Assembly: GCA_030153935.1 (NCBI GenBank)
Contig: JASKKX010000002.1
Location: 1 to 50,996, forward strand
Direction: 5' to 3'
Length of the DNA stretch: 50,996 nucleotides
Source of the DNA: Verrucomicrobiota bacterium
Lineage (GTDB): Bacteria > Verrucomicrobiota > Kiritimatiellia > Kiritimatiellales > Tichowtungiaceae
In this document: piece after piece, positions 3,282-11,696 of the stretch
How the letters are laid out: each line of letters opens with the position of its first letter
Position numbering within the stretch: the stretch's first letter is position 1
Notes under the pieces: generated by a model
Told to the model about the DNA's origin: nothing
Seen by the model: the letters and a program-made list of their open reading frames with translations, nothing else
Database searches by the model: none
Translations under genes and position numbers: made by a program

Positions 3282-3323
3282 ATCATTCATTAAGTATCGA
3301 TTGACTTCTATCGGTGTAGATTG
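3282..3323. promoter_or_regulatory. Putative operator: three ATC[AG][ATG]T units with exact 14-bp period overlapping the rex promoter
   Basis: ATCATT(3282) ATCGAT(3296) ATCGGT(3310), spacing 14 and 14. Confidence 0.6.
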
Positions 3324-3330
3324 TTATACT
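3301..3330 (+). promoter_or_regulatory. Putative sigma70-like promoter of rex
   Basis: TTGACT (3301-3306), 18 bp, TATACT (3325-3330); 5/6 match in both boxes. Confidence 0.55.
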
Positions 3331-3351: not shown

Positions 3352-3999
3352 ATGAGTGAACTGGAACGAAAAACCGCCGGAGTACCGACCCTGAAACGCC
3401 TGCCGCTCTATTTGCGGCTGTTGCGGCAAATGAAAGAAGCCGGAGAGGAATACGCTTCCGGCGCGGTCGTCGCCCGCGAACTGGGACTCGATCCGATTGT
3501 CGTCCGCAAAGACCTCGCCATCACCGGAGCCGTCGGCCGCCCGCGCCTTGGATTTCACATGGACGAAATTATTACGGCCATCGAAAACTTTCTAGGCTGG
3601 TCGAACACCTCCGATGCCTTCCTTGCCGGGGTCGGCAACCTTGGCACCGCCCTGCTCGGCTACCAGGGTTTCGAACAGCACGGCATGTGCATTGTCGCTG
3701 CCTTCGACGCCAATCCGGAAATCATCGGACAAAAAATCCACGGAAAAACCATTCTCAACATTAACAAACTGCCGACACTCGCCAAGCGGATGCACGTTCA
3801 GATCGGCATCATCACCGCCACCGCCTCCGTCGCACAGGGCATTGCCGACACCATGATCGCCGGCGGAATCCGCGGCATCTGGAATTTCACTCCGGCCAAA
3901 CTCAACGTGCCGAAACACGTCATCCTCCAGCGCGAAGATCTTGCCTCCAGCCTGGCTGTTCTCTCGCATCGGCTCCTGATCGGCCATGTCCCGAGCTGA
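3352..3999 (+). CDS. rex: Redox-sensing transcriptional repressor Rex
   Basis: Winged helix with VVRKDLA, Rossmann GVGNLGTALL, AAFDANPEIIG; Rex family. Confidence 0.93.
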   Translation: MSELERKTAGVPTLKRLPLYLRLLRQMKEAGEEYASGAVVARELGLDPIVVRKDLAITGAVGRPRLGFHMDEIITAIENFLGWSNTSDAFLAGVGNLGTALLGYQGFEQHGMCIVAAFDANPEIIGQKIHGKTILNINKLPTLAKRMHVQIGIITATASVAQGIADTMIAGGIRGIWNFTPAKLNVPKHVILQREDLASSLAVLSHRLLIGHVPS

Positions 4000-4088: not shown

Positions 4089-5522
4089 TCAGGAATGTTC
4101 CAGCAGCTGCGCAAGTTTTCGTCCGGCGACAACCGGATTGCAGAGTACGCCCGGACCGCTCATGCACCCGCCTTCACAGCACATGACTTCAATGAAGTTG
4201 CCGTCGCCGTCGCGGGTTGCCGCCGCTTTCAGCCGCATCAGCGATTTGCTGTCGAGCCCGTTGAAGCAAACCGGTTTCAGGTCGGCCTGTTCTTCCGCCA
4301 ACTGAGCGCGGATGGCACCGGTGACCCCGCCGCTGACAGCGAAACCGCGTCCGCCGGCCTGTGCCGGATGTTCGAACGGCTTCGACTCGCATTCCTGCAC
4401 GTCGATTCCGGCAGCAATCAGTATGGCCCCAAGCTCCTCAAAGGTCAGTACATAGTCTATATTCGGATTGTTCAGTGCTTCTGTCCGCTTGGCGATACAC
4501 GGGCCGATGAATACGGTAACCGCTTCGAAATCGGCCTCTTTGATCATGCGCCCGCTGATGGCCATCGGAGAAGGAGTATGCGAAATGAACTTTTCGAGTT
4601 CCGGCAGATGCTTGTTCACAGCTTCAACATAGGCCGGGCAGCAGGAAGTGGTCATAAAGGGCGCTCCGGCTTTAATGCGCTCTTTCCATTCTGCCGCCTC
4701 GCGCCGAACGGTTTCGTCGGCGCCGACAGCAACTTCCGCGATCCGGGTAAATCCAAGCTGCTCAAGAGCGGCGGCAATCCGGCCGAGATCGCCGGGAAAC
4801 TGGCCGACGATCGATGGGGCCAGCAGGGCGATACCTTTCTTTCCGCTCTTCAGCATTTTCAGCACATCAATCATCTGCGACCGGTCCTGAATGGCAGCAA
4901 ACGGACAGGCGCGGGCGCACTGCCCGCAGGCAATACACTTTTTATGATCAATGACTTCCCGTCCGTCTTCGTCTTTGAAGACCGCTTTGACCGGACAGAT
5001 TTCTTCGCAGGGAACCGGTGTGCGCACGACAGCATTATACGGACAGGCTTGCATACAGAGTCCGCAATTCACACATTTATCCGGGTTGATCACTGCGCGT
5101 CCGTTGATCATCTCAATGGCATCTTTCGGGCAGTTGGTCTGACAGGCGCGACCCAGGCAGCCGCGGCAGGCGTTGGTGACCAGATACTGGCTTTTCAGAC
5201 AGGCGCTGCAGGCGATGTCAATGACGGTCAAGGCAACGCTTTCGACCGCCTCGCGTTTCAATGCCCGGTTGAAATAATTCCGCAGCGGAGTCAGTTCATC
5301 GGTTTCATCTTCGACACCGAATCCGAGTGCCGCCATGGTGCGGTATTTGAGCACTTCGCGATCCTTGTAGACACAGCAGCGGGACGCCGCCCCGCCCTTC
5401 GGGCGTATTTTTATCGGAATATGGTCGATCGCATCCTCCGGATTGTCGCTCATGAAGGCTTCAGCCACATGAACAAGCACTTCTTTGCGAATACGGTTTG
5501 CCTGATTATCATACCGCATCAC
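4089..5522 (-). CDS. [FeFe]-hydrogenase, group B-like, with 4Fe-4S clusters
   Basis: H-cluster motifs TSCCPAY, FIGPCIAK, EVMCCEGGCMSGPG; several CxxCxxCxxxC ferredoxin clusters. Confidence 0.88.
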   Translation of the reverse strand: MMRYDNQANRIRKEVLVHVAEAFMSDNPEDAIDHIPIKIRPKGGAASRCCVYKDREVLKYRTMAALGFGVEDETDELTPLRNYFNRALKREAVESVALTVIDIACSACLKSQYLVTNACRGCLGRACQTNCPKDAIEMINGRAVINPDKCVNCGLCMQACPYNAVVRTPVPCEEICPVKAVFKDEDGREVIDHKKCIACGQCARACPFAAIQDRSQMIDVLKMLKSGKKGIALLAPSIVGQFPGDLGRIAAALEQLGFTRIAEVAVGADETVRREAAEWKERIKAGAPFMTTSCCPAYVEAVNKHLPELEKFISHTPSPMAISGRMIKEADFEAVTVFIGPCIAKRTEALNNPNIDYVLTFEELGAILIAAGIDVQECESKPFEHPAQAGGRGFAVSGGVTGAIRAQLAEEQADLKPVCFNGLDSKSLMRLKAAATRDGDGNFIEVMCCEGGCMSGPGVLCNPVVAGRKLAQLLEHS

Positions 5523-5793
5523 AACGGTCTCCTTTGCTGCCGATCAGTATCCGGTCACAGGCTTCAATCAGGCTTTCAGCCGATACATTACTGAGCAGCA
5601 TCCGATTCACGCGGGCAAACGGCGGACGGCCGTTCCGCGGATCGCCGCATACTCCGAGGCAGTGTGACCCGCAGATGTTCACATGCGGACGCAACCGGGC
5701 CGGAAGCTCTTCGGCCAGATTCAGAAGGTGCCCCGCGCCCATAACGAAGCAGGTGGTTCCTGTGCAGATTTCAACATCAATCAGTTCATCCAT
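5509..5793 (-). CDS. [2Fe-2S] ferredoxin, thioredoxin-like
   Basis: DVEICTGTTCFVMGAGHLL...NICGSHCLGVCGD, NuoE/HndA-like cysteine pattern. Confidence 0.8.
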   Translation of the reverse strand: MDELIDVEICTGTTCFVMGAGHLLNLAEELPARLRPHVNICGSHCLGVCGDPRNGRPPFARVNRMLLSNVSAESLIEACDRILIGSKGDRCDAV

Positions 5794-5808
5794 GTCTATG
5801 TCTCCGTT

Positions 5809-6984
5809 CTAGATATAACGAATATTCACTTCTTTCAGATAGTTCTCTTCAAGTACCTGTTTAATCCGTTTGAGCAGGTTGCGTCGGATTTCCAAATCGA
5901 CCGGCAGGCTCGGATCCTGATGGGCATCGTTGATGCGCGTCCCGACGACGAATTCAATCACATCGCTTTCCCGCAGCAACTCGACGAGCTGTGTCGCCGC
6001 ATTGCTTTCCATCGGCAAATTTCCGCTTTCAAGGATGCGCTGCACCTCGGTGAGGGTGAGAATGCCTTCCGTTACCAAATCGACTCCCTCCATAAGCGAT
6101 ACGGGGGGAAAAGGCGACTGCCCGCGCAGCAGCGGTGTGCGCAGCGGACGGCTCAGCTCGCGGGCGATAATTTCGGCGCTGGTTCCGCCGCAAATGATTT
6201 TTCGTCCGTCAAAGGTTTCGACCAGCCGGGCGAATTCCTGATCGCGCGCGGCGGCGTAGGGCGGCCCGGAAAGCACCAGGGTGCGGCGCGGCTTGCGCAT
6301 ATACACCGCCGCGCAGGTGGTATCGTCGCCCGCTCTGCGGCCCGGTTCTTTATTCAGCGCCTCGCAAACGATGCGCCGCACCAGATCGCGCGCGGAAATA
6401 TCGGGTTTTCCGGCCAGCAGATGCTGAACAAAGCCAACGACCCCGCTGCGCCGCCAACCCAGTTTATAAAACGACGTGCCCATGCCGGCCTCGGTGACCC
6501 CGTCCGAAAAAAAGATGAGCCGGTCTTCGGGCCGCGGTTCGTAGACGGTCAACCGCAATGTACGGTAGTCCTGATGCCGGCTGCCGAGTTCCTCACACGG
6601 CAGATCGATGACTTTTCCGTTACGAATACAAATAAACCGGGGATTCCCCTGTTCAATAACCCGTATAGTGCGGTTGTCGCGGCAGTCCACCACCGTGTAG
6701 GTGGCGTAGCCGATTTTGCGGACGGCGCAGATCGGCAACACATCCATCATAATTTCCGCCGACCGGATCATGTCCAGTTCACTTTGCGCAAATTTCAAGG
6801 CCATTTTGGCGGTCATCGACGCCAGGATACAGGCTTTCATTCCGCTGCCCAACCCGTCCGACAGCACAGAAATCACCCGCCCGCTCTCGCGGTCGCGATG
6901 CGATAGAAACGCATCGCCGCAGGCATTTTCGGTCGCTTTGCGGACCTGATAAAATTCGACTTCTTTAAACAGGCCGGCTTTCAC
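5809..6984 (-). CDS. SpoIIE/PP2C family protein phosphatase
   Basis: SDGLGSGMKA, FFSDGVTEAG, GDDTTCAAVYM metal/catalytic motifs; hydrogenase operon context. Confidence 0.87.
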   Translation of the reverse strand: MKAGLFKEVEFYQVRKATENACGDAFLSHRDRESGRVISVLSDGLGSGMKACILASMTAKMALKFAQSELDMIRSAEIMMDVLPICAVRKIGYATYTVVDCRDNRTIRVIEQGNPRFICIRNGKVIDLPCEELGSRHQDYRTLRLTVYEPRPEDRLIFFSDGVTEAGMGTSFYKLGWRRSGVVGFVQHLLAGKPDISARDLVRRIVCEALNKEPGRRAGDDTTCAAVYMRKPRRTLVLSGPPYAAARDQEFARLVETFDGRKIICGGTSAEIIARELSRPLRTPLLRGQSPFPPVSLMEGVDLVTEGILTLTEVQRILESGNLPMESNAATQLVELLRESDVIEFVVGTRINDAHQDPSLPVDLEIRRNLLKRIKQVLEENYLKEVNIRYI

Positions 6985-8696
6985 GGTTCGACGCCCTCCT
7001 CTCCGGCGTAATCATCGGCAATCGAGCGCAGCAGGATTTCGGTATCGGCCATATGTTCGCCGAGCTTGAAGGCGACTTCCTGCACCGTTGCCAGATTTTT
7101 GTTGATCACTTCGCGGGCCCGGCTGGCAATATGCTCGCGGCGGAGTTCGCTGGATGTGACATCGAAGAAAATCCCGCCGACGGTCTCGCCCTGCTCAATA
7201 ACAAAGATATGAATGTTGAGGATGCGGTTGCCCACACGCATCATATCGCAGTCATATTCCTCGCCGGTTTCCAGCACGCGCCGGAAAATTTCGGGAAAAG
7301 GAATGCTTCTGTCGAGCCGCGCTCCCTCCATTCCGGGTTTTGCCTGATACGTCAGAAGCAGTTCTTCGCCGAAGAGCCGCGCAAAGTTTTCATTGCACTC
7401 CACAATCCGCAGCGCGGCATCGGCAATCACGACACCTGACGGCATGCACCGCAGCAGCGCGTTGGCTTTTTTCTGCGCCCGTTTTCGAAGATTGGAAAGG
7501 CACATGGCCGGTTCCGCACATCCGGCCACGACAGCCAGCGCGAATGCGCAGCAGGTTTCGTAGCCGCACCCGCCGCAGTTGAGTTCATCGGCGGCGCTGT
7601 GTTTTCCGATGCTCGCAAGTGCTTCGGTCAGGCGGCGCGGGTCGATCGGCTCCGGTTCCGGGGCCGGGCGGTGAATCGTCATTCTCAGGTTCAGACCTGC
7701 CGGACCTGACGGCACATCGGGAAAAACGGTCCGGCGGCGGATTTCCAGCTCACCGTTCAATGCCATCTCTTTGCTTACACAAGGCCCTCCCAGACAGCCG
7801 CCGTCACAGGCCAGCAGTTCGAGAAACACCGGCTCCGCCGGAGGCATGGTTTTGAATCCATTCAGTGCGTGGCGGATATTCCGAAGTCCCGCCACACTCA
7901 GCAGCCGCGCCGGATTGTCTTTCAGACTCAAGCGAAGTGTCTCGTTCATGCCTCCGGCCATGGGATAAAGAGCGCCCTCTTTAGCCGCGTACGGCACAAA
8001 CGCTTCATCCGGAAAAACGTCTGCACCGCCCGGCAGGAGACCGGCTTCGCTGAGCCAGCGTTGAAGATCCTCAAACGTCAGGGCCACGTCAATCAGCTCT
8101 TCGTGTTCGTCGGCTTCACATTTTTTTGCGATGCAGGGTCCGATGAAAACCACGCCGGTTTTTTCTCCGAAGGTTTCACGCAGGAACTTGCCGTGCGCGA
8201 GCATCGGCGACAGCGTCGGCGTGAGCGCATCTGCCATTTCCGGGATATATTTACAGATATAATCCACGGCAACCGGACAGGCGGTCGAGAGATTCAGTTT
8301 CCGTCCGGCGGTTCTCAGCCGGTCGGCAACCGCATGATTGACCAGCTCGGCACCCAGCGCGGTTTCGCTGACGCCGGCAAAGCCGAGTTTTTTCAGTGCA
8401 TGGATCAAGGCCGCAGCCGGGACGCCGGGAAAGGCGGCGGCGTACGACGGGGCCAGCGAAACGAAAACGTTATCCAAACGATCCAGCAGATATTTCACGC
8501 GGCCCAAATCGTCGCGGATATGCTTGGCATGAGCCGGACAGACCTCGACGCAGCGGCCGCAGGCAATGCAGGCTCCCGCAATGACCGCCGCCCGGCCCTT
8601 TTCCACCTTGATGGCTTTTACCGGGCACTGACGCAGGCACTTGTAGCAGTCCTGACATTCTGTCTCGACCGTATAAACAGGAAAGGTCTTGTTCAT
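6981..8696 (-). CDS. Putative sensory [FeFe]-hydrogenase (group C/HydS-like) with 4Fe-4S and PAS domains
   Basis: N-terminal ferredoxin clusters, H-cluster motifs STACP, FIGPCIAKK, ACDGGCLGGPC, CGGCGYETC cluster, then PAS-like CMPSGVVIADAALRIVECNENFARLFG. Confidence 0.87.
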   Translation of the reverse strand: MNKTFPVYTVETECQDCYKCLRQCPVKAIKVEKGRAAVIAGACIACGRCVEVCPAHAKHIRDDLGRVKYLLDRLDNVFVSLAPSYAAAFPGVPAAALIHALKKLGFAGVSETALGAELVNHAVADRLRTAGRKLNLSTACPVAVDYICKYIPEMADALTPTLSPMLAHGKFLRETFGEKTGVVFIGPCIAKKCEADEHEELIDVALTFEDLQRWLSEAGLLPGGADVFPDEAFVPYAAKEGALYPMAGGMNETLRLSLKDNPARLLSVAGLRNIRHALNGFKTMPPAEPVFLELLACDGGCLGGPCVSKEMALNGELEIRRRTVFPDVPSGPAGLNLRMTIHRPAPEPEPIDPRRLTEALASIGKHSAADELNCGGCGYETCCAFALAVVAGCAEPAMCLSNLRKRAQKKANALLRCMPSGVVIADAALRIVECNENFARLFGEELLLTYQAKPGMEGARLDRSIPFPEIFRRVLETGEEYDCDMMRVGNRILNIHIFVIEQGETVGGIFFDVTSSELRREHIASRAREVINKNLATVQEVAFKLGEHMADTEILLRSIADDYAGEEGVEP

Positions 8697-8968
8697 TTTC
8701 CACCCTCCTTTGCCGGGCAGAATTCCCGGAGAATATCCAGCAGGGTTTCCCGATCCACCTTATGGAAACGCCGACCGTTCACAAGCAGGTTCGGCCCTTC
8801 AGCACAGCAGCCTTCGCAGCGGGTTCCTGTCAGTTCGACGTCGGCTTGCAGCCGGTTTTTATCAAGCCAGTTCTCGATCACTTCCAGATTAGCCCCGTTG
8901 CCGCGGGCGAAACAGGAGCTGCCCATGCACACCGTAATCGTCACTGTGTTCCGCTTTTCAGTTTTCAT
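8693..8968 (-). CDS. [2Fe-2S] ferredoxin, thioredoxin-like
   Basis: VCMGSSCFARGN...GTRCEGCCAEGPNLLVNGRRF. Confidence 0.82.
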   Translation of the reverse strand: MKTEKRNTVTITVCMGSSCFARGNGANLEVIENWLDKNRLQADVELTGTRCEGCCAEGPNLLVNGRRFHKVDRETLLDILREFCPAKEGGK

Positions 8969-9030
8969 CTGAACCTCCTGTTTCTCTGTTTTCCGCCCAT
9001 CCCGAAAAAAAGTTTAAAATTATGGTTGCA

Positions 9031-9100
9031 TACGATATGTAATTATCGATATATGTCAATCGTTTTAAATTAATCGATTTTTACAGATCGATAAAGCGAG
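9031..9100. promoter_or_regulatory. 14-bp iteron-like array (5 units of [AT][AT]CG[AT]T) in the divergent hydrogenase/adhE promoter region
   Basis: TACGAT(9031) ATCGAT(9045) ATCGTT(9059) ATCGAT(9073) ATCGAT(9087), all exactly 14 bp apart. Confidence 0.75.
9032..9059 (-). promoter_or_regulatory. Putative promoter of the hydrogenase operon
   Basis: Minus strand TTGACA (9059-9054), 16 bp, TATCGT (9037-9032). Confidence 0.45.
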
Positions 9101-9119: not shown

Positions 9120-11696
9120 ATGACCAAAGCAGATACTGAAAAACTGGATACAATAATCCAGACCATGAAAACGGCGCAGGAACTCTATGCGCAGTTTTCA
9201 CAGGAGCAGGTCGACCGGATTTTCCGCAGCGCGGCGATTGCCGCCAACGCCGCCCGCATCCGGCTGGCCAAAGAAGCCGTTGCCGAGACCGGCATGGGCA
9301 TCGTTGAAGACAAGGTAATCAAAAATCACTTTGCTTCGGAATATATCTACAACAAATACAAAGACTGTAAAACCTGCGGCGTGGTGGAAGCCGATCCCAC
9401 GTTCGGAATCCGCCGGATCGCCGAACCGATCGGTATCATTGCCGGGGTTGTGCCGACCACGAATCCGACATCCACCGCGATTTTCAAATCGCTGATTGCA
9501 CTTAAAACCCGCAATGCGATTATCTTTTCCCCTCACCCGCGGGCAAAAAAATGCACCGCAGCGGCAGCCAGGCTGATCGAAAGGGCGGCGGTTGAAGCCG
9601 GTGCGCCGGAAGGTTTGATCGCCTGTATCGAAGAACCGACGGTTGAACTGTCGAACGCACTGATGCGTCACCCGGAAATCAGCCTGATTCTGGCGACCGG
9701 CGGACCGGGGATGGTGAAAGCGGCCTATAGCAGCGGCAAGCCGGCCATCGGCGTCGGCGCGGGCAATACGCCGGCGATCATCGACGAAACCGCCTGCATA
9801 AAAACCGCAATCAACAGCATTCTGATCAGCAAGACGTTCGACCACGGCGTGATCTGCGCCTCGGAGCAAAGCGTGGTTGTGGTCGAAAGCGTTTATGAAG
9901 AGGTGAAAGCCGAATTCAAAATGCGCAGCGCCTATCTGTTGAATGCCAAAGAAAAGAAAGCGGTCGGCGAAACCATCATTAAAGACGGACGTCTCAACGC
10001 GGAGATCGTCGGACAGCCGGCGGCGAAAATCGCGACGCTGGCCGGAATTGAAGTTCCCGCCGACACCAAAGTGCTGATCGGTGAAGCCAAAGAGATCGGA
10101 GAACAGGAACCTTTTGCCCACGAGAAGCTTTCGCCGGTGCTGGCACTCTATAAGGCAAAGGATTTTCAGGATGCCGTCGGGAAAGCGGTCGCGCTGGTGA
10201 AATTCGGCGGGATCGGCCATACCTCGGTGCTCTACACCGACCCGCTCAATCAGGATCGCGTTCTCACCTTCGGGGAGCAGATGAAAACCGGACGTATACT
10301 GGTCAACATGCCCAGCTCACAGGGGGCCATCGGCGACCTTTACAACTTCAAGCTCGAACCGTCGTTGACACTGGGCTGCGGCAGCTGGGGCGGAAACTCA
10401 ATCAGCGAAAACGTGGGAGTGAAACATCTGATGAACATCAAGACCGTCGCGGAACGCCGTGAAAACATGCTGTGGTACAAAGTGCCGCCGAAGCTCTACT
10501 TCAAGTACGGCTGCCTGCCGGTTGCCCTCAGAGATCTGGAAGACCGCCGGCGCGCGTTTGTCGTTACTGACAAACCGCTCTACGACCTCGGCATGGCCGA
10601 GCGCGTGACGAATGTGCTCGAAAAGATGGGAATCGACTGCGAAGTTTTCTACGATGTCAAACCCGATCCGGATCTGAGCACGATCAAAAAAGGCCTGAAA
10701 GTCATGAACAGCTTCAAGCCGGACGTGATCATCGCTCTCGGTGGTGGATCGCCGATGGACGCCGCCAAGATTATGTGGCTGATGTACGAAAGCCCGGAAA
10801 CGAAATTCGAAGACCTTGCCATGCGGTTTATGGACATCGAAAAGCGGATCTGCGTCTTTCCGACCCTTGGGAAAAAAGCGCAGATGGTCGCCATCCCGAC
10901 CACCAGCGGAACCGGCTCGGAAGTCACGCCGTTTGCCGTCGTCACCGACGACAAAACCGGTGCCAAATATCCGATTGCCGACTACGCGCTGACGCCGAGC
11001 ATGGCGATTGTCGATCCGGAGCTGGTCATGGGGATGCCCAAAGGGCTGACTGCCTTCTCGGGAATCGACGCCCTCACCCATGCCATCGAAGCGATGGTCA
11101 GCGTTCTCAGCACCGAGTTCACCAATGCCCAGGCACTGGAAGCGATTCGGCTGCTGTTTAAATACCTGCCGACCGCTTATGAACACGGGGACGACCGGAA
11201 AGCGCGCGAAAAAGTGCATTACGCGGCCTGCCTGGCCGGCATGGCCTTTGCCAACGCCTTCCTCGGCATCTGCCACAGCATGGCGCACAAACTCGGCGCA
11301 GCGCATCACCTGCCGCACGGACTGGCCAATGCCCTGCTGATCAACGAAACGATCCGTTTCAACGCAACGGACAATCCGCTGAAACAGGCCGCCTTCTCGC
11401 AGTACACCTGGCCGACCGCCAAAGAGCGTTATGCCCGCATCGCGGACTATCTCGGACTCGGCGGAAAAACCAACGACGAAAAAGTTGAACGGCTCATCAA
11501 AGCAATCAACGGGCTGAAAGCCGAACTGGCCATCCCGGCGACCATCAAAGATGCCGGCGTGCCGGAGAAGGCGTTTTATGACGGACTCGATGAACTGGCG
11601 GAAAACGCCTTCGACGACCAGTGCACCGGCGCCAATCCGCGCTACCCGCTGATCCGCGAAATCAAGGAGCTCTACATCGCGGCCTACGAAGGATAG
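9120..11696 (+). CDS. adhE: Bifunctional acetaldehyde-CoA/alcohol dehydrogenase
   Basis: 858 aa; N-terminal ALDH (GVICASEQSVVV) fused to C-terminal Fe-ADH (GGGSPMDAAKIMW, HSMAHKLGAAHHLPHG). Confidence 0.96.
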   Translation: MTKADTEKLDTIIQTMKTAQELYAQFSQEQVDRIFRSAAIAANAARIRLAKEAVAETGMGIVEDKVIKNHFASEYIYNKYKDCKTCGVVEADPTFGIRRIAEPIGIIAGVVPTTNPTSTAIFKSLIALKTRNAIIFSPHPRAKKCTAAAARLIERAAVEAGAPEGLIACIEEPTVELSNALMRHPEISLILATGGPGMVKAAYSSGKPAIGVGAGNTPAIIDETACIKTAINSILISKTFDHGVICASEQSVVVVESVYEEVKAEFKMRSAYLLNAKEKKAVGETIIKDGRLNAEIVGQPAAKIATLAGIEVPADTKVLIGEAKEIGEQEPFAHEKLSPVLALYKAKDFQDAVGKAVALVKFGGIGHTSVLYTDPLNQDRVLTFGEQMKTGRILVNMPSSQGAIGDLYNFKLEPSLTLGCGSWGGNSISENVGVKHLMNIKTVAERRENMLWYKVPPKLYFKYGCLPVALRDLEDRRRAFVVTDKPLYDLGMAERVTNVLEKMGIDCEVFYDVKPDPDLSTIKKGLKVMNSFKPDVIIALGGGSPMDAAKIMWLMYESPETKFEDLAMRFMDIEKRICVFPTLGKKAQMVAIPTTSGTGSEVTPFAVVTDDKTGAKYPIADYALTPSMAIVDPELVMGMPKGLTAFSGIDALTHAIEAMVSVLSTEFTNAQALEAIRLLFKYLPTAYEHGDDRKAREKVHYAACLAGMAFANAFLGICHSMAHKLGAAHHLPHGLANALLINETIRFNATDNPLKQAAFSQYTWPTAKERYARIADYLGLGGKTNDEKVERLIKAINGLKAELAIPATIKDAGVPEKAFYDGLDELAENAFDDQCTGANPRYPLIREIKELYIAAYEG

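Follow-up and report, generated by a model that had tools for sequence, protein, structure and literature searches.

The five-unit, 14-bp phased array at 9031 to 9092 of the window (the whole 50,996-nucleotide stretch of Verrucomicrobiota DNA analysed here) is very probably a multi-dyad operator of the Rex protein encoded at 3352 to 3999, which would repress the hydrogenase (hyd) operon, adhE and its own gene until NADH rises. With the same high confidence, residue and motif comparisons place this Rex in a subfamily whose DNA-reading surface is altered, R60-G61 having become P-R/K and F54 having become T, and whose operator is TCGAKAA-N4-TTMTCGA. The motif of the array is conserved, is associated with this Rex subfamily and overlaps the predicted hyd and rex promoters.

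The array lies between two divergent transcription units. The gene for the bifunctional aldehyde/alcohol dehydrogenase AdhE runs rightward on the plus strand (9120 to 11696), while the five-gene hyd operon runs leftward on the minus strand and is followed by the convergent rex, about 5 kb from the array. In order, the hyd genes encode a thioredoxin-like [2Fe-2S] protein (8693 to 8968), an [FeFe] hydrogenase-like protein with a C-terminal PAS domain (6981 to 8696), a SpoIIE-type phosphatase (5809 to 6984), a 94-aa protein with no Pfam match (5509 to 5793) and a monomeric [FeFe] hydrogenase (4089 to 5522; TIGR04105, 540 bits). Pontiella sulfatireligans (L141) has a gene order matching that of the hyd operon at 4089 to 8968. 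Together with this order, the PAS/SpoIIE composition suggests an H2- or redox-sensing signalling branch beside the catalytic enzyme.

Within the array, the hexamers TACGAT, ATCGAT, ATCGTT, ATCGAT and ATCGAT begin at 9031, 9045, 9059, 9073 and 9087, exactly 14 bp apart, giving five copies of [AT][AT]CG[AT][AT], just as an earlier sequence-only reading of this DNA had described. That reading also placed the array 20 bp upstream of adhE, which holds for the end of the last 14-mer; the last hexamer ends at 9092 and the adhE ATG is at 9120. As the intergenic region is AT-rich (27% GC over 9000 to 9099), phasing by chance was considered. When the 151-bp hyd/adhE intergenic region was dinucleotide-shuffled 20,000 times, with every spacing from 7 to 40 allowed, 3-unit chains arose in 0.45% of the shuffles, 4-unit chains in 0.005% and 5-unit chains in none. 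The excess of WWCGWW pairs at spacing 14 in the 51-kb window is due solely to the array, which is also the only WWCGWW triple with 14-bp spacing in the organism's own 2.0-Mb assembly. Because the dyad described below is conserved in relatives, chance phasing is refuted, and we assign it a negligible probability. The earlier suggestion of a protein-binding array is supported as well.

Comparison with relatives indicates that each 14-bp unit is one half of a dyad 20 bp long, ATCGAT-N8-ATCGAT, and that the array chains four such dyads, each overlapping the next (9031-9050, 9045-9064, 9059-9078 and 9073-9092). Pontiellaceae carry two separate 20-bp dyads, [AT]TCGAT-N8-ATCGA[AT], about 81 bp apart in the hyd/adhE intergenic region, one before hyd and the other before adhE, and in the window's genus (G000, G009, G010) these are merged into 3- to 5-unit chains; the 14-bp unit is therefore a half-site. 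Thus the 14-bp period of the original description stands, whereas the 14-mer as functional unit gives way to the dyad of two neighbouring hexamers. A dyad is present in the hyd/adhE intergenic region of all 11 genomes with full-length adhE, with one base changed in the most distant (G052). This bears out the expected conservation upstream of adhE orthologues. The proposal of a single regulator for H2 and ethanol formation is plausible.

The dyads overlap predicted promoter elements. On the minus strand, the predicted hyd promoter TTGACA-16-TATCGT (9032 to 9059) has its -35 at 9059-9054, a 16-bp spacer and TATCGT at 9037-9032, so the overlap of the array with this -35, as first reported, is real; several relatives show a matching TTGAC[AT]-16/17-TATCT[TA]. 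The hyd-proximal putative operator dyad, ATCGATATATGTCAATCGTT (9045 to 9064, minus strand), has its half-site fused to the -35, and its counterpart on the hyd strand, ATCGATTGAC, is found in adhE-containing members of the Kiritimatiellales. For adhE, a plus-strand promoter TTGCAT-18-TATATG (9026 to 9055) was assigned by eye and is repeated in relative G009; the Pontiellaceae version is TTGCGC-17-TATACA-like. The adhE-proximal putative operator dyad, ATCGATTTTTACAGATCGAT (9073 to 9092, plus strand), stands alone in Pontiellaceae, downstream of the adhE -10. At rex itself, a putative autoregulatory operator, ATCGATTGACTTCTATCGGT (ATCGAT-N8-ATCGGT; 3296 to 3315, plus strand), overlaps the -35 of the predicted promoter TTGACT-18-TATACT (3301 to 3330, plus strand). 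Most Kiritimatiellales orthologues keep the dyad in the rex promoter, with the half-site ATCGA and the -35 TTGAC fused, as they also are in hyd promoters.

The 51 kb were scanned with a matrix derived from relatives, which excludes the window but is sharpened since part of its sites were picked by exact pattern. The top five places were the rex site and the four dyads of the array. Their scores run from 23.6 to 16.3 (16.3 to 21.5 for the array dyads), and the best non-operator place in the window scores 10.5.

Window-type Rex occurs in 24 of 59 genomes, including all 11 with adhE (P = 9e-6, ignoring phylogeny), and rex, hyd and adhE share one contig in several relatives. Ten relatives together contain 43 exact dyads; by coordinate count, about 26 of these lie in rex-hyd-adhE neighbourhoods or at the lactaldehyde reductase locus of G009. 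Dyads are also found before genes for lactaldehyde reductase, a NuoE-type subunit and an nfn-like protein, and in relatives some exact dyads are intragenic or precede genes with no redox link, such as alanyl-tRNA synthetase-like genes. The promoters of serC (phosphoserine transaminase) in four Pontiellaceae genomes (L123, L128, L131, L103) contain an exact TTCGAT-N8-ATCGA[AT].

In the organism's own genome, a search allowing two mismatches gives 90 dyad matches, which is too loose for any regulon to be defined from it. With one mismatch, the matches make clear sense only for rex, the array and an nfn-like gene (L060). The last match, ATCGATATAAACACATCGGT (G000:C91:14785-14804), lies about 113 bp upstream of a gene for a sulfide/dihydroorotate dehydrogenase-like FAD/NAD subunit, a possible further Rex target. 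Enrichment of the array motif near redox genes, which the sequence-only reading had anticipated, was found for the dyad in relatives, whereas the phased triple in the own genome is the array alone. The triple was dropped as a genome-wide signature, being unique in the own genome and in relatives mostly a product of 7-bp tandem repeats of other kinds; the dyad served as search unit instead. Many contigs of G053 (L040) carry dispersed 7-bp tandem repeats, TTCGATG/ATCGAAC, and G020 has a similar TACGAAT repeat, both unrelated to the array.

The product of rex (RKDLAITGAVGRPRLGF; 3352 to 3999, plus strand), a predicted NADH-sensing repressor of a divergent subfamily, matches Pfam PF06971 and PF02629, the winged-helix N-terminal and NAD-binding domains, and NCBIfam NF003994 (276 bits; cut-off 130). 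Its PDB matches are Rex chains without exception (best E 8.5e-36), and its membership of the fold appears clear from sequence. Named relatives at 74-88% identity are mostly Kiritimatiellales/Pontiellaceae, which makes this order the most likely source of the window. The subfamily forms one clade in a FastTree phylogeny (support 0.83) of a sample drawn by similarity.

The structure of Thermotoga maritima Rex with NAD+ and DNA (PDB 7WB3, PMC8836258) allows the DNA-reading residues to be compared. In that complex, base reading falls to R48, at the G of TTG, and to K49, at positions nearer the centre; the wing residues R60 and G61 make minor-groove contacts to the pair of T bases preceding this G (PMC8836258). 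The window subfamily shares the fold family and the base-reading R48 and K49, which are invariant (RKD in 81 of 81 members). In contrast, R60-G61 is replaced by P-R/K (P60 in 80 of the 81, R/K61 in 78), F54 by T (T54 in 72), S52 mostly by A/E and S45 mostly by I/T. At the T. maritima positions R60, G61 and Tyr64, the window Rex has P, R and F, and the T. maritima-type wing is absent. As R60 is not highly conserved in one list (PMC8836258), we regard the P60 wing as a subfamily difference rather than as exclusion from Rex. When canonical and subfamily operators are aligned at their centres, the G and inner A are unchanged, whereas C stands in for T at -7.5 and A for T at -5.5. The site of change in the protein, the wing, thus appears to coincide with the site of change in the DNA.

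To what extent the operator extends beyond the order was addressed with a genome scan using a Rex alignment, which gave 80 named loci in Kiritimatiellota, Verrucomicrobia, Lentisphaerae, Hydrogenedentes, Riflebacteria, Acidobacteria, Planctomycetes and Melioribacteraceae, with 61 upstream regions from outside Kiritimatiellales. An unbiased gapped-dyad search of these 61 rex upstream regions recovered TCGA-N10-TCGA in 12 (0.3 in shuffles), GAGAA-N4-TTCTC in 10 (none in shuffles) and ATCGA-N10-TCGAT in 8 (none in shuffles). The refined logo from these non-Kiritimatiellales regions is ATCGAKAA-N4-TTMTCGAT; position -4.5 is T in Kiritimatiellales and G or T in the wider subfamily. Scanning 1.2 Mb with the matrix gave 100 matches, of which 58 lay no more than 260 bp upstream of a rex gene; shuffled sequence gave 2. 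The suggestion of a lineage-specific Rex site therefore survives as to Rex but not as to lineage, as the site belongs to one Rex subfamily found in several phyla.

Several loci have distinctive arrangements. In Verrucomicrobia subdivision 3 and similar loci (L163, L165, L173, L178, L184), two subfamily rex genes stand back to back, separated by a stretch that holds TCGA-type sites, and at L163 and L184 genes for NuoE or [FeFe]-hydrogenase adjoin the pair. On a Verrucomicrobiota contig (L157), adhE is directly followed by a subfamily rex, with ATCGATATTCGAATATCGAT upstream of adhE (355-374). In one family of the phylum (L246-L263), whose Rex has a GQPGVGYK wing, many rex promoters carry near-identical dyads of the form WTMGATAAAAAAATATCKAW, which are an AT-rich version of the same operator.

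We then scored rex promoters that had been held out. Among 17 unseen top members of the subfamily, 9 promoters exceeded a threshold of 12.5 bits with the TCGA-type matrix, as did none of 17 coding controls; with the two changed matrix columns set to the canonical bases, the count for the same promoters was 1 of 17. A second held-out set of P60 members, drawn from remote or second rex copies, gave 5 of 31 above threshold versus 2 for the canonical form (p = 0.07), and one T54/P60 member of this set has a canonical-like site. Together these show that the residue signature alone is insufficient for specificity, and P60 by itself, tried as an operator predictor, performed weakly among remote second copies. 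Of the distant rex promoters, only about half contain the motif. The operator class thus appears to be real but not coextensive with P60.

A second Rex is encoded in the same genome (G000:C49:10928-11479, L231), with orthologues (L217-L235) in most Kiritimatiellales genomes, and could in principle be the one that uses the array. Its recognition helix is of canonical type (VRKDFSxFxLTGNKRGGY), and several orthologue promoters have a canonical TGTTA-N6-TAACA-like dyad. Overall, TGTNA-N6-TNACA was present in 10 of 24 second-Rex promoters and the TCGA type in none of the 24; for the window subfamily the figures are 1 of 80 and 21 of 80. The second Rex is also present in close relatives that lack both adhE and window-type Rex. 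That it acts at the array is, accordingly, very improbable.

A regulator other than Rex, either of the CRP/FNR family, as the sequence-only reading had offered, or an unrelated dimeric repressor, might be invoked since the ATCGAT half-sites are unlike textbook Rex sites. As had been noted, a canonical operator is not evident: TTGTKA-N6-TMACAA has no match in the hyd/adhE intergenic region with up to three mismatches. Against this, the motif tracks rex across phyla (in loci that were found through rex), and the gene that travels with the site is rex and not a CRP-type gene. The FNR-type TTGAT-N4-ATCAA has no close match, since the array contains a single one, at 9046-9059 with two mismatches, and the number in the window is that expected by chance. 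We consider another regulator improbable, slightly less so than use of the array by the second Rex, and return to the Rex encoded at 3352 to 3999.

How this Rex would use a chain of dyads is less certain. The phasing may be a by-product, with two ordinary 20-bp operators packed together as the intergenic region shortened and each bound independently; this competes with cooperation along the array and leaves the Rex assignment unaffected. The separate Pontiellaceae dyads, merged into chains in the window's genus, fit such packing. However, third half-sites at 14 bp also occur in the rex promoters of four genomes (G014, G019, G023, G025) and again in distant phyla, whose rex promoters involve no divergent pair to pack. 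At exactly 14 bp, a third half-site is found in 16 of 64 flanks, compared with a mean of 2.95 and a maximum of 8 at other offsets (P ~2e-8). We give packing slightly less than an even chance. Dyads can be chained in 14-bp steps because the ATCGAT half-site is self-complementary, which TTGTGA does not allow. Dimers next to each other might share a half-site, sit on different faces of the DNA or take up alternate dyads. The broader proposal, in which a multi-phylum Rex subfamily with a rewired operator code would bind 14-bp arrays as cooperative overlapping dimers, so that the NADH switch would be sharper than with single-site Rex and insulated from the second, canonical Rex, is put forward only tentatively.

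Known Rex operators provide a close comparison. The Staphylococcus aureus Rex operator (ROP) is TTGTGAA-W4-TTCACAA (PMC2883068). Like it, the sites of the array and the rex promoter are 18-bp inverted repeats in the Rex register, located in fermentation-gene and rex promoters, and they share T at -8.5, G at -6.5, G/T at -4.5 and A at -3.5 and -2.5. The subfamily operator differs in having C for T at -7.5 and A for T at -5.5, and these two bases make the half-site nearly self-complementary and chainable every 14 bp. In the available text of the respective papers, the Clostridiaceae motif is TTGTTAA-N4-TTAACAA (PMC8457756) and that of T. ethanolicus is ATTGTTA-N6-TAACAAT (PMC5886521). Both share T at -4.5 with the window, and their targets include adhE, hydrogenase and rex; they differ from it at the same two positions, and no phased chains were noticed in those portions of text. 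We therefore view the TCGA-type operator as a probable variant of the known kind of Rex operator, with its own code.

The window Rex and the tested TCGA-type Rex proteins have NCBIfam NF003994 (PRK05472.2-3) as their best model. This is a protein-family name only, and the literature searched assigned no operator to it; as NF003994 also matches proteins without the P60 wing, its membership differs from that of the operator class. We found no report of a TCGA-type Rex operator in the papers searched, where Rex sites are of the TTGTGA or TTGTTA type (PMC2883068, PMC8457756, PMC5886521). The listed titles and abstracts likewise contained no report of the motif in connection with Rex; the Rex regulons of Ravcheev 2012 lie outside that scope and may describe the motif.

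By analogy with Rex biology, which supplies the steps of binding, repression and release by NADH, Rex dimers would occupy the 20-bp dyads ATCGAT-N8-ATCGAT while NAD+ is plentiful. Bound Rex would cover the hyd -35 and the adhE promoter and start region, switching off both transcripts, and would repress its own gene through 3296-3315. As NADH builds up, Rex would be released, and hydrogenase and AdhE would be made and would re-oxidise NADH. If this is true, a redox switch that ranks among the most widespread in bacteria has a second DNA code, and targets would become predictable in Kiritimatiellota, Lentisphaerae, Acidobacteria, Riflebacteria and other phyla on whose Rex regulation there seems to be little work. 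A cell with two Rex paralogues, each with its own code, would then be a clean case of paralogue insulation, in which the changed wing residues point to the changed bases.
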